Origin: Sphaerochaeta globosa str. Buddy
GTDB taxonomy: Bacteria; Spirochaetota; Spirochaetia; Sphaerochaetales; Sphaerochaetaceae
Assembly (NCBI RefSeq): GCF_000190435.1
Contig: NC_015152.1
Coordinates: 874,458 to 938,457, forward strand
DNA: 64,000 nt
Direction of reading: 5' to 3'
Positions within the stretch are counted from its first letter, which is position 1; every line of letters begins with the position of its first letter. Below are positions 52,638 through 56,935 of this stretch, in pieces. A model generated the notes under the pieces. The model ran no database searches, had not been told where the DNA came from, and was given only the letters and a program-made list of their open reading frames with translations. The translations under genes were made by a program, and so were the position numbers.

Positions 52638-53423
52638 TTATTTGAATACTACGATGGCTTTCGGCTCCAACACCCTGAAGGTGAAGGACTCGGTTGCAAA
52701 GAGGGTGACTTCCTTGGTGTCATGGGTTTCATAGCCAATGGCGAAATCCTGTCCGATGGTCAGCTCGAGATTCTCATTGTTATAGGGAACCAAGAGGGCA
52801 CCTTCAATGCTGGGAGCCAGGACAACCTTGGAGCCAAGCATTTTCTCCACCCTGTCCAAAAGGCTTTTTCCGTATGAATCCCGACTGAGCATCAGCCAGA
52901 CCTGTTTGCTTACTACCAGGGTGTAGGGTCCGTGGATGAATCCCTTCTTGAGCAGCAGAACGCCTTCGGCGATCGAGGTCAGAACATCGTTGGGCTCACT
53001 TCCCAATGTGAGCACTTTATGCTCGGACGACTCTTTCAAACCCTTGATGCCACCCTTTGCATAGCCGTTATACACGGCGTTTTCTTCAAAGAGAGCGAGC
53101 TTTTCCAACGCGGCATCGAGGTTATCGTAATCGATGTCCTTTGCACCACGGGCAAGGTTGTCCAGTTCCCACTTATTAAGAGAGAAACGGATTCTTGCTT
53201 CGGTGAGCGGCTTGGCGGTATAGGTACCGGCCTTTACTTCGCCGTCATCGACCAAGGTAAGCCTGCCTTCACTGATAACTGTGAAGTCAATGCCTTTCGG
53301 GCCATCGACATCAACGACCTTGCGGGCGGTAAGACGGGAGAGCAATACTTCCTTTGCTCGTTTTTCTATTTCACTCCATGCTTGTGCAGAGAGCGGGGCA
53401 AGTTCTCGTTTAAACATATCCAT
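52638..53423 (-). CDS. Encapsulin shell protein (family 1)
   Basis: A 261-residue HK97-fold shell protein, close to the Thermotoga maritima encapsulin length. It begins MDMFKRELAPLSAQAWSEIEKRAKEVL and contains GPKGIDFTVISEGRL, the E-loop region and YTLVVSKQVWLMLSRDSYGKSLLDRVEKMLG, ending SFTFRVLEPKAIVVF, all typical of linocin/encapsulin. It self-assembles into a protein cage that holds cargo bearing a C-terminal targeting peptide. The ATG at 53423 is chosen because GGAGG lies ten bases upstream. The cargo gene is 19 bases upstream, so cage and cargo form one operon. Confidence 0.95.
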   Translation of the reverse strand: MDMFKRELAPLSAQAWSEIEKRAKEVLLSRLTARKVVDVDGPKGIDFTVISEGRLTLVDDGEVKAGTYTAKPLTEARIRFSLNKWELDNLARGAKDIDYDNLDAALEKLALFEENAVYNGYAKGGIKGLKESSEHKVLTLGSEPNDVLTSIAEGVLLLKKGFIHGPYTLVVSKQVWLMLSRDSYGKSLLDRVEKMLGSKVVLAPSIEGALLVPYNNENLELTIGQDFAIGYETHDTKEVTLFATESFTFRVLEPKAIVVFK

Positions 53424-53442
53424 AGTCAATTATCCTCCAATG

Positions 53443-53787
53443 TTATTGCTTCAGGTCGCCGATCGATAATGTGGAAGATTGGCTTAAAGCGTCTTCTGCA
53501 CCGCCTTCTTCGACATCCAGTACCGAACCTTCGGTAAACAGATAGGTTTTCAGTTCATGATCCCATCCATCCATATTCCTTCTGAGCCATTCCAAGGTCA
53601 TCACGGCGTGTTCAATCTCTTCGTCGCGGTTATGGGCCATGATTCCTTTGAGTTCAAAATCCTTGGATGTGTTAACTCTCTGGTTGTACCAGTCAACCGC
53701 TTCAAGTTCTTCCCTGAGACTGGTGATTGCACGAGAGATATCTCTCGTTTTTTCGTCTATTGCATCAAACGGTTCAGTGTAAGCCAT
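53443..53787 (-). CDS. Encapsulated ferritin-like protein (EncFtn), encapsulin cargo
   Basis: A 114-residue two-helix ferritin-like protein. REELEAVDWYNQRV and AHNRDEEIEHAVMTLEWLRR carry Glu27, Glu57 and His60. These align with Glu32, Glu62 and His65 of Rhodospirillum rubrum EncFtn, which form the ferroxidase centre at the dimer interface. The C-terminal tail after YLFTEGS is flexible and ends in LSIGDLKQ, matching the encapsulin targeting peptide (L-x-I-G-x-L-[KR]). It oxidises Fe(II) and deposits iron in the encapsulin cage. AGGAGG precedes the ATG. Confidence 0.95.
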   Translation of the reverse strand: MAYTEPFDAIDEKTRDISRAITSLREELEAVDWYNQRVNTSKDFELKGIMAHNRDEEIEHAVMTLEWLRRNMDGWDHELKTYLFTEGSVLDVEEGGAEDALSQSSTLSIGDLKQ

Positions 53788-54081: not shown

Positions 54082-54110
54082 TTACTGATTAAATACAAAA
54101 TTTGTATTAT
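54082..54110 (+). promoter_or_regulatory. Promoter of gntR
   Basis: TTACTG (54082-54087), exactly 17 bases and TATTAT (54105-54110). The expected leader is about 43 bases. The palindrome at 54092-54108 fills the spacer. Confidence 0.5.
54092..54108 (+). promoter_or_regulatory. Palindrome overlapping the gntR promoter, probable autoregulatory operator
   Basis: AATACAAAATTTGTATT is a perfect inverted repeat of eight bases each side of a central A. It occupies the spacer and start of the -10. GntR regulators of the HutC type usually bind such short palindromes. No copy is seen in front of fadD. Confidence 0.5.
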
Positions 54111-54159
54111 ACTTTTCATACAAACCTACTCCTAAACTTGCACTAAACGGAGGCTTTTT

Positions 54160-54897
54160 ATGGCATTGAAATTCAAATCAGTTTTTACCCAGCTTCAGAT
54201 GAAGATCATTTTTGGCGAATGGCCCGAGGGCTATAGAATTCCAACAGAAATGGAGTTGTGTGACCAATATGGAGTCTCGAGGGTTACCATTCGAAGGGCT
54301 CTCGATGGTTTGGTGACTCAAGGGTATATCTCCCGTACAAGGGGTCGTGGTTCATTTGTATTGTTCAAGCGATCAGTGGTTGGATTGGGCTATCCCCAGA
54401 TTATTGAATCCGAAACAGAGGTTGCCCCAAAGGGCATCTACAAGCTTCTGCTTAAAGAACAAGTGGTAGCATCACAAACCGACAAAGTGCAATTCAATCT
54501 TTCCGACCGTCCTGAAGACAGCATGGTATGGCACTTCAAGAGCCTGCATATTGTCGATGGCAAGCCGTCGGTACTCAGTGACTTTTATGTTGCTCCCCGA
54601 TTCGGGGCTCAGATAGCCGCGCTGGATGAGATGGGTAATGAATCCTTCTTTGAGGTGGTGAGTAAGCGATCCGGCCAACGGTGTCACTTTGTAAACGGCA
54701 AGGTGGCTGCGATAAATCCCAATGAGGAAATCTGCAATCAGCTTGGTATCGATTGTAAATCTGCAAGCCTCTGGTGTAGGGGTATGTGCGTACTCGACGA
54801 TGGGACTGTTGTCGGTCGCAGTACAAAGGTTTTCAATGGACTGATGTACGAGTTTGCAGTAGAGAGTGGGGGAAATTTCAATATTGCAAGAGTGTAA
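54160..54897 (+). CDS. GntR-family regulator, HutC subfamily (UTRA domain)
   Basis: A 245-residue protein. The N-terminal winged helix (about 7-70) contains GYRIPTEMELCDQYGVSRVTIRRALDGLVTQGYISRTRGRGSFV, a standard GntR DNA-binding domain. The C-terminal ~150 residues form a UTRA ligand-binding domain (WHFKSLHIVDGKPSVLSDFYV). It probably represses its own promoter through the palindrome at 54092-54108. The gene 115 bases downstream is an acyl-CoA synthetase, so an acyl-type ligand is possible, though most UTRA ligands are sugars or amino acids. Confidence 0.88.
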   Translation: MALKFKSVFTQLQMKIIFGEWPEGYRIPTEMELCDQYGVSRVTIRRALDGLVTQGYISRTRGRGSFVLFKRSVVGLGYPQIIESETEVAPKGIYKLLLKEQVVASQTDKVQFNLSDRPEDSMVWHFKSLHIVDGKPSVLSDFYVAPRFGAQIAALDEMGNESFFEVVSKRSGQRCHFVNGKVAAINPNEEICNQLGIDCKSASLWCRGMCVLDDGTVVGRSTKVFNGLMYEFAVESGGNFNIARV

Positions 54898-54925
54898 CAA
54901 TTGACGAATACCTGTTAATTCACGA

Positions 54926-55010
54926 TAAGCCTCTTTGATTTCCTTGTGTTTTTTTGACAACTGGAGTATACGTGTAAGTATAAGACACTTGTACATCATA
55001 AAGAGGCTTA
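54926..55010 (+). promoter_or_regulatory. Long-range inverted repeat that can hide the fadD ribosome-binding site
   Basis: TAAGCCTCTTT (54926-54936) is perfectly complementary to AAAGAGGCTTA (55000-55010). The second arm contains the AAGAGG ribosome site of the acyl-CoA synthetase gene, whose ATG is at 55013. The first arm lies upstream of that gene's own promoter. Only transcripts reading through from gntR would contain both arms. Confidence 0.5.
54954..54984 (+). promoter_or_regulatory. Candidate promoter of the acyl-CoA synthetase gene
   Basis: A perfect TTGACA (54954-54959) with TATAAG (54979-54984) at 19 bases, somewhat wide. The alternative -10 AGTATA gives 17 bases. The predicted start near 54991 excludes the upstream arm of the inverted repeat. 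Confidence 0.45.
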
Positions 55011-55012
55011 GC

Positions 55013-56935
55013 ATGCAAAGAACTATTGTTCAGATGCTGCACGATGCAGCTCAGAAATACGGGGACCGGGCATACACCAATTCAAGAGCTGATTCAGGCT
55101 GGCAGCCCAGCTCATTCAAGCAAACGGACATTCAGTCGGATTATGTTGCTGCATACTTGCTCAATCATGGATTCAAAGCCGAGCAAGCGGTCGGTATTCT
55201 CAGTGAAGGCAAGAATTCCTGGGTTACATTTGAACATGGCGTCATTAAGGCAAGAATGATCAGCGTCCCTTTGTCCATAAAGCTGACACCTGAGGAGATT
55301 GCTTTTCGCATCAACCATAGCGAGGCAGTCATCCTGGCGGTTTCTGCCAATACGTTGGGCAATGCTGCTAAGGCTCTGCCGTTCTTCGACCATCATGTGA
55401 TGTTCGTCTACCTCGATGAGCAGGATGACCGCCTGGAAAGCCAGATCAGCCAAGCAAACTGGAAGCAGGATGTGGATTACGTTCCCTACTCCACCATGCA
55501 GATGGATGGTGAGGCCCTGTTGGTAAAGCAGCCGAATCTTGTAAAGGATGTAGAGGCACAAATCAGCGAGCAGGATACTATCAACATCTGTTATACCAGT
55601 GGTACAACAGGCAATCCGAAGGGAATCATGCTCACCCATGTCAACTACTACACCAATGTGCATGATGCCATTGATCTGTTCCAGCTCCCCGATGCTCAGT
55701 TTGAGACATTGGTTGTGCTCCCAGTTGATCATAGTTTTGCGCATACCGTGGGTATTTATACGGCTTTGCTTCGGGGCATTACCCTCCATTTTGTCGATTC
55801 CCGCGGTGCCAATGCTGCAATTATCCGCAACTTCCCCAAGAACCTCGTGGAATTGAACCCCGTGTTCTTGATGACGGTTCCCTCCATTACCGGAAACTTC
55901 ATGAAGAAAATGATTCAGGGTATCCATCAAAAGGGTGCCTTTGTCGAAGGGATTTTCAACAGAGGGCTCGAAGCAGGCATGCTTCGCAATGGTGATGGCT
56001 TTCATAAGGGTGGGACGTGGATCCGCATCAAGACATGGCTGCCGTATACCTTGGCCAACTTGCTGGTATTCCCCAAGTTGCGCAAGATTTTTGGTGACAG
56101 AATGCTCTATTGTGTAGGTGGTGGTGCGTTGCTTGAGGCCAAGCAACAGCGTTTCTTTGCTGCTATCGGCATCCCTGTGTTCCAAGGCTACGGGCTTACT
56201 GAAGCCGCTCCTATCATCAGCAGCAATACTCCCCATCGCTATAAGTTCGGTACCAGCGGCATGGTTGCCAAGAGTGAAATCTGTAAAATCATGGTCGATG
56301 AGACTACCGAGGCAAAGGTAGGGCAGAGAGGCGAATTGGTCATAAAGGGCGAGAATGTCATGAAAGGCTATTTCAAGAACCCCTCTGCCAGTGCCGAGGT
56401 TCTGCGGGATGGTTGGCTTTGGACCGGCGACCTCGGGTACTATGATGAGGATGGGTTCTTGGTCGTAACCGGCCGTGCGAAGGCGCTTTTGATCAACAAG
56501 GATGGCGAGAAGTACAGTCCTGAGGAAGTTGAGGAAGTAATGGTCAACAGCCTTTCGGTCCTGAACCAGCTGATGGTGTACAATGATCATAAGATGATTA
56601 CTACTGCCTTGGTTACGTTGCAGGAGGATGTAGTTACCCATCTCATTGAGGAAAAAGGCTGCAAGACTGCTGAAGAGACTTTGGATATGCTTGTGACAGA
56701 ACTGAAGTCCTATGAATCCCAGGCTACGTCCATTCCCAACATATGGCTTCCTTCCCGGTTTGCCATCATCGAAAAACCGTTCAGTGAAGCTGATGGTTTG
56801 GTCAATTCGACGATGAAGCTGGTTCGCTACAAGACTACCGAATTCTACAAAGACAGGATTGCAGAACTGTACGAAAGTGAAGCGGCGAATAAGAAAGCCA
56901 ATATTGAAGTAATTAAGCACCTGTTCTTCAAGTAA
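55013..56935 (+). CDS. fadD: Long-chain acyl-CoA synthetase (AMP-forming)
   Basis: A 640-residue adenylate-forming enzyme. ICYTSGTTGNPKGIMLTH is the P-loop-like AMP motif, YGLTEAAPIISSN is motif A5, and WLWTGDLGYYDEDGFLVVTGRAKALLINKDGEKYSPEEVEE covers the hinge and C-terminal domain. It activates fatty acids with ATP and CoA. No beta-oxidation genes are nearby, so the acyl-CoA or acyl product may go into phospholipids. AAAGAGG precedes the ATG at 55013. Regulation may involve the upstream GntR protein and the inverted repeat covering its ribosome site. Confidence 0.9.
   Translation: MQRTIVQMLHDAAQKYGDRAYTNSRADSGWQPSSFKQTDIQSDYVAAYLLNHGFKAEQAVGILSEGKNSWVTFEHGVIKARMISVPLSIKLTPEEIAFRINHSEAVILAVSANTLGNAAKALPFFDHHVMFVYLDEQDDRLESQISQANWKQDVDYVPYSTMQMDGEALLVKQPNLVKDVEAQISEQDTINICYTSGTTGNPKGIMLTHVNYYTNVHDAIDLFQLPDAQFETLVVLPVDHSFAHTVGIYTALLRGITLHFVDSRGANAAIIRNFPKNLVELNPVFLMTVPSITGNFMKKMIQGIHQKGAFVEGIFNRGLEAGMLRNGDGFHKGGTWIRIKTWLPYTLANLLVFPKLRKIFGDRMLYCVGGGALLEAKQQRFFAAIGIPVFQGYGLTEAAPIISSNTPHRYKFGTSGMVAKSEICKIMVDETTEAKVGQRGELVIKGENVMKGYFKNPSASAEVLRDGWLWTGDLGYYDEDGFLVVTGRAKALLINKDGEKYSPEEVEEVMVNSLSVLNQLMVYNDHKMITTALVTLQEDVVTHLIEEKGCKTAEETLDMLVTELKSYESQATSIPNIWLPSRFAIIEKPFSEADGLVNSTMKLVRYKTTEFYKDRIAELYESEAANKKANIEVIKHLFFK

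Follow-up and report, generated by a model that had tools for sequence, protein, structure and literature searches.

Results

The gntR–fadD locus

The window analyzed here is a 64,000-nt stretch of the 3.32-Mb Sphaerochaeta globosa chromosome, positions 874458–938457 (G000:C1). Toward its end lie two genes on the + strand that point in the same direction and are separated by 115 nt. The first, gntR (54160–54897), encodes a GntR/UTRA regulator of the HutC type (Pfam GntR 2e-17, UTRA 6e-12) that reached none of the NCBIfam equivalog cut-offs. The second, fadD (55013–56935), encodes an AMP-binding acyl-CoA synthetase of the long-chain-fatty-acid--CoA ligase type (Pfam AMP-binding 1e-63); it matches NCBIfam PRK06187 at 2.6e-69, yet under the curated cut-off. 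Within the genus, approximately 18 genomes have a gntR orthologue adjoining fadD. On the - strand at 52638–53787, divergent from gntR, lie genes for an encapsulin shell (Linocin_M18) and an EncFtn-like encapsulated ferritin.

The fadD promoter was assigned by alignment of approximately 17 orthologous promoters. It is predicted at 54954–54981 (+ strand), with a -35 element TTGACA (54954–54959), a 16-nt spacer and an extended -10 element TGT-AAGTAT (54973–54981). An earlier note on this DNA had placed a promoter between two complementary arms upstream of fadD. A promoter at this position is conserved in the orthologues, but the -10 element TATAAG at 54979–54984, with a 19-nt spacer, fits worse than the extended -10. 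The predicted transcription start is near 54988 (54988–54991 under either choice of -10), after the first arm and before the ribosome binding site (RBS). A conserved block, CTTGTGTTTTTTTGACA (54943–54959, + strand), lies upstream of the -35 and includes it. Among the genus genomes compared this block is essentially confined to the fadD locus, and in most relatives it pairs with the RBS.

No intrinsic terminator, in the form of a GC-rich stem with a U-run, was found on the same strand in the fadD leader of the window, and no U-run follows the helix described below. Since gntR is co-directional and close upstream and the strand has no terminator-like site, RNA may read through into fadD, and gntR is proposed as its source. 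To judge from the distance, gntR ribosomes stopping at 54895–54897 would leave the left arm clear, as it is at least 23 nt away.

Complementary arms flank the fadD promoter

The left, anti-RBS arm (54921–54936, + strand) contains the perfect 11-base core TAAGCCTCTTT at 54926–54936. The right arm (55000–55015, + strand) contains the matching core AAAGAGGCTTA at 55000–55010; it comprises the Shine-Dalgarno sequence AAAGAGG (55000–55006), a spacer and the ATG (55013–55015). The wider pairing extends up to the ATG with 14/16 positions matched and two mismatches. The two cores are the sole two occurrences within 64 kb, where 0.01 are expected. This 11-base complement, reported in the earlier note, is the longest perfect upstream complement among 293 genes with Shine-Dalgarno sequences in about 464 kb of genome, a null sample that includes 20 genome stretches of 20 kb; the next longest is 9 bases. 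In 3,000 shuffles of the fadD leader the maximum was 10, never 11. Scanning the whole genome would nevertheless be expected to give approximately one match of this kind at random, which makes conservation the proper criterion.

Readthrough RNA is predicted to hide the ribosome binding site

The 181-nt fadD leader folds with -47.5 kcal/mol (z -3.3, 0/200 shuffles as good) and contains the 11-bp helix. The helix persists in a 601-nt context and in RNA folded from the gntR start, and has a probability of 0.90 when pairing is limited to 100 nt. According to the earlier note, mRNA reading through from gntR would hold both arms and hide the RBS, while mRNA from the fadD promoter would lack the first arm and have a free RBS. 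Folding agrees with both proposals. The predicted probability that the Shine-Dalgarno sequence is unpaired is 0.09 in readthrough RNA and 0.65–0.75, hence mostly free, in RNA starting at 54986–54991. Deletion of the left arm in silico gave 0.74. For the start codon the values are 0.26–0.74 versus about 0.36; because this effect is less clear, the predicted effect falls on the Shine-Dalgarno sequence.

Masking was quantified as the RBS opening energy of the long RNA minus that of the short RNA, with and without the upstream 100 nt, a measure chosen after the first folds. The predicted cost of opening the RBS is 11–17 kcal/mol in the long RNA and 2–5 kcal/mol in the short one. With a difference of 11.0 kcal/mol, fadD is at the top of 334 genes (mean 1.4, sd 2.65) and is also highest among the 53 genes with TTGACA-like promoters. 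An Rfam scan of the window at the gathering score found one tRNA only and no match to a cis-regulatory RNA family.

Masking is conserved through changed arms

The literal arms were aligned using the G000 (S. globosa) and G005 rows. They are kept only in G005, a sister species sharing the block AATTCACGATAAGCCTCT, so sequence conservation alone would point to a private feature. Masking itself is more widespread. The difference is positive in 17/17 genus loci that have both genes (2.0–12.6 kcal/mol), and the probability that the RBS pairs with the upstream part is 0.55–0.83. In the weak species G016, G015 and G006 it is 2.0, 2.9 and 3.4 kcal/mol, respectively, which is within the range of ordinary genes. 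The earlier note had named beforehand a lack of conserved complementarity as grounds against its proposal; in the relatives complementarity persists as a property even though the sequences that provide it have changed.

The masking arms differ by species and often lie in the portion of the fadD promoter ahead of its transcription start; left arms in the relatives are outside the reach of RNA from the own promoter. In the G001 type the -35 and spacer sequence CATCGGCTG pairs with TAGCTGATG, and the partner of TAGCTGATGAAGAGGAACATAATG is CTTGTGTTTTCTTGACATCGGCTG, which comprises the block before the -35, the whole of that element and a portion of the spacer. The arms of G008 and G002 are GTGTTTTCT...TTTGGT and ACCAAA...AGAGAAAACAC, and those of G015 are GGTACGGT and ACCGTATC. 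In G004, TTCC-TTGT-GTTTC-CCAT covers its own RBS and start.

Several intervals between gntR and fadD have additional features. In G004 (L018) the -35 TTGACA has decayed to CATGCCAT, whereas the upstream block TTCCTTGTGTTTC is retained and is still complementary to the RBS and start codon. In G008 (L003, 1840–1885) a local hairpin, located after gntR and before the fadD promoter, is followed by a T-rich sequence and scored as terminator-like. The same interval in G002 (L004) has an 11-bp perfect stem to which the terminator scan gave no score. Readthrough in these two species may be reduced by the intervening hairpin.

Arms and ribosome binding sites coevolve

When shuffling was confined to the sequence preceding the -35, the effect went undetected in most species, since their arm sits in the -35 and spacer. 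A chimera test was therefore devised in which the upstream part of one lineage is joined to the leader of another, with random reassignment among 10 units that are related by descent. Masking averaged 6.5 kcal/mol in native combinations and 2.9 kcal/mol in swapped ones (permutation p about 2e-4). The effect was retained without the clade of the window (p about 2e-4), without the two strongest clades, those of the window and of G001 (p 6e-4), and in six other settings of length, start and window (median p 0.0003–0.002). No effect was observed with a control coding window (p 0.68), the gntR leader (p 0.87) or the divergent EncFtn leader (p 0.78). The consistent pairing partner is the RBS window (probability of pairing, p 0.0002; UTR, p 0.012). 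Duplex tests carried out block by block were weaker (upstream region with RBS, p 0.009; -35 end and spacer with RBS, p 0.011; T-rich block, p 0.05).

These results bear on whether T/C-rich promoter DNA and a purine-rich RBS simply pair by chance or in a generic way, unselected, with the 11-bp match as the lucky extreme of approximately 3,000 genes. The shuffle rate of less than 1/3000, with about one match expected genome-wide, fits this explanation, as does the low masking of some species. Furthermore, the clade B RBS pairs with the T-rich promoter block of almost any species, foreign promoters included, so masking is partly generic pyrimidine–purine pairing. Conversely, native pairing exceeds that of lineage swaps that retain the same promoter block, the control leaders show no effect, and significance survives removal of the window's clade. 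Chance pairing as the whole explanation is therefore unlikely.

Masking in other genera and the orientation of the upstream neighbor

Elsewhere in the Sphaerochaetaceae masking amounts to 11.9 kcal/mol in G027, 7.6 in G026, 7.1 in G148, 6.9 in G142, 5.4 in G149 and 5.0 in G076. The pairing in G027 (TCTCTCCTT with AAGGAGAGA) is immediately upstream of its -35. Four genera with gntR upstream and the same gene order (G029, G139, G141 and G132) have no masking. The fadD leaders of G148 and G147 (L091 and L092), which belong to one genus, contain a strong hairpin, ACACACGCC...GGCGTGTGT, within the predicted 5' UTR.

In G022, G023 and G130 the upstream neighbor is divergent, so nothing can read into fadD. 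Here the difference is 1.0, -1.0 and -2.2 kcal/mol, respectively, and masking is absent. G022 lacks gntR, and its ferritin gene points directly away from fadD. These three divergent genomes differ from the 20 co-directional units (exact rank test, p 0.001) in a post hoc test devised after the pattern was noticed, with values entered by hand. Over the window's genome at large, neighbor orientation is without effect on the difference (1.46 versus 1.46). The absence of masking where there is no co-directional neighbor, and its retention despite changed arms, suggest that evolution maintains it.

Less probable alternatives

The repeats could instead be half-sites of an operator around the -10, bound by GntR or another regulator and acting in DNA, not as arms of an RNA. 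HutC-type regulators bind short palindromes. The sequence GTATAnnTGTnAnTA is conserved across the spacer and -10, and in G142 (L087, about 1750–1800) the fadD -10 and start region is covered by GTATCAGTGTTAATATTAACACTGATAC, a perfect palindrome of 28 bp that may be a symmetrical operator. The gntR leader has a dyad of its own, the imperfect TTTGTATTATACTTTTCATACAAA (54101–54124, + strand), which covers the predicted gntR -10, is conserved in the genus and is a candidate GntR autoregulatory operator. GntR probably controls the fadD promoter, with the GTATAnnTGTnAnTA block and the gntR dyad as candidate sites. Against operator half-sites as the origin of the arms, arm sequence and spacing vary by clade, and it is the RBS window that is consistently paired. 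The gntR helix-turn-helix is almost invariant across the genus while the arms change, so a shifting GntR specificity does not explain the changing arms, which speaks against a shifted operator. We regard a purely DNA-level dyad as rather improbable; an operator and an RNA lock may coexist.

A terminator or 3'-end structure of the gntR mRNA might overlap the fadD leader by accident. Such a structure is suggested by the separate hairpin that G008 and G002 carry after gntR and ahead of the fadD promoter, found in clade B only and terminator-like in G008. Because the window helix has no U-run, no terminator-like site was found on its strand in the window's fadD leader and the RBS itself is paired in all clades, this explanation is very improbable. 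Perfect inverted repeats flanking a promoter also recall an invertible promoter, an idea that is scarcely credible given the same orientation in all relatives compared, the single orientation in the assembly and the loss of the repeat outside one sister species. A plasmid search gave no match.

Discussion

We consider it fairly probable that selection maintains a promoter-dependent lock on the RBS that would stop readthrough from gntR from yielding acyl-CoA synthetase. Such selection would account for what was established by computation, namely the presence of the arms and their fold, the contrast between readthrough and own-promoter RNA, and the coevolution of the arms across lineages. RNA entering from gntR would be made and would be poorly translated. 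In this RNA the anti-RBS segment would emerge first, and a long hairpin would then hide the Shine-Dalgarno sequence and partly the start codon. The emerging RBS would be paired before 30S binding, or in competition with it, and leakage would give little FadD. Because the arms flank the fadD promoter, RNA initiated there is predicted to begin past the left arm and to be translatable. The purpose may be to produce FadD only when its own promoter fires and not through leakage from the regulator gene. More tentatively, and with less confidence than in the lock at this locus, we propose that the lock is selected as a property, such that arms derived from promoter sequence that the gene's own RNA does not contain turn over repeatedly throughout the family, and that the lock is missing where the upstream neighbor has ceased to point into the gene.

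If this is correct, ordinary bacterial metabolic genes are guarded against leaky readthrough by the trick that serves the lysis gene of phage T4, and the same promoter DNA doubles as a promoter when bound and as an antisense arm when transcribed. Because pairing rather than sequence is kept, Rfam-style searches would miss such locks. Leakage-proof leaders behind co-directional regulators could then be common and invisible to alignment-based RNA searches. Other regulator–target pairs can be tested by comparing RBS accessibility with and without the RNA of the upstream neighbor.

A literature search found no bacterial chromosomal precedent, which is weak evidence given the limited literature covered, and no transcriptome of this organism. 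Related systems are known. In yeast, long undecoded transcript isoforms arise from an upstream promoter and the shorter isoform is decoded; these are eukaryotic and depend on upstream ORFs and chromatin, whereas the fadD lock would depend on RBS pairing. In IS10 and IS50, RNA that originates outside the element folds back on the transposase RBS, with the terminal inverted repeats as arms. This fold-back needs a transposase and a terminal inverted repeat, whereas fadD encodes an AMP-binding ligase and is not associated with an insertion element.

The closest parallels are in phage T4, and the suggestion in the earlier note that such a switch might be undescribed is not supported, since genes e, soc, 49, I-TevI, segB and, from Aeh1, mobE are documented examples (PMC3014915, PMC2988022). 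In gene e, as in soc and 49, the long RNA initiated upstream hides the RBS, whereas RNA from a promoter close to the RBS, without the 5' arm, is translated well; the gene e structure is present in relatives and was shown experimentally (PMC3014915). Late-promoter transcripts of I-TevI, I-TevII, I-TevIII, segB and Aeh1 mobE cannot form the hairpin that hides the RBS, and the I-TevI protein also represses its late promoter (PMC2988022). By comparison with gene e and I-TevI, fadD has an arm that pairs with the Shine-Dalgarno sequence and start, an own transcript without this arm, from a predicted start, and the structure in relatives. The differences lie in the setting. Gene e is a phage late gene under temporal control, whereas fadD is a chromosomal metabolic gene behind its probable regulator, with a lock predicted by computation. 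The I-TevI group are homing endonucleases in introns and phage operons, whereas fadD has no mobile element and its candidate repressor is encoded by a separate upstream gene. The principle is thus already known; what appears to be new is its occurrence at a chromosomal metabolic gene, with arms that turn over across a whole family.
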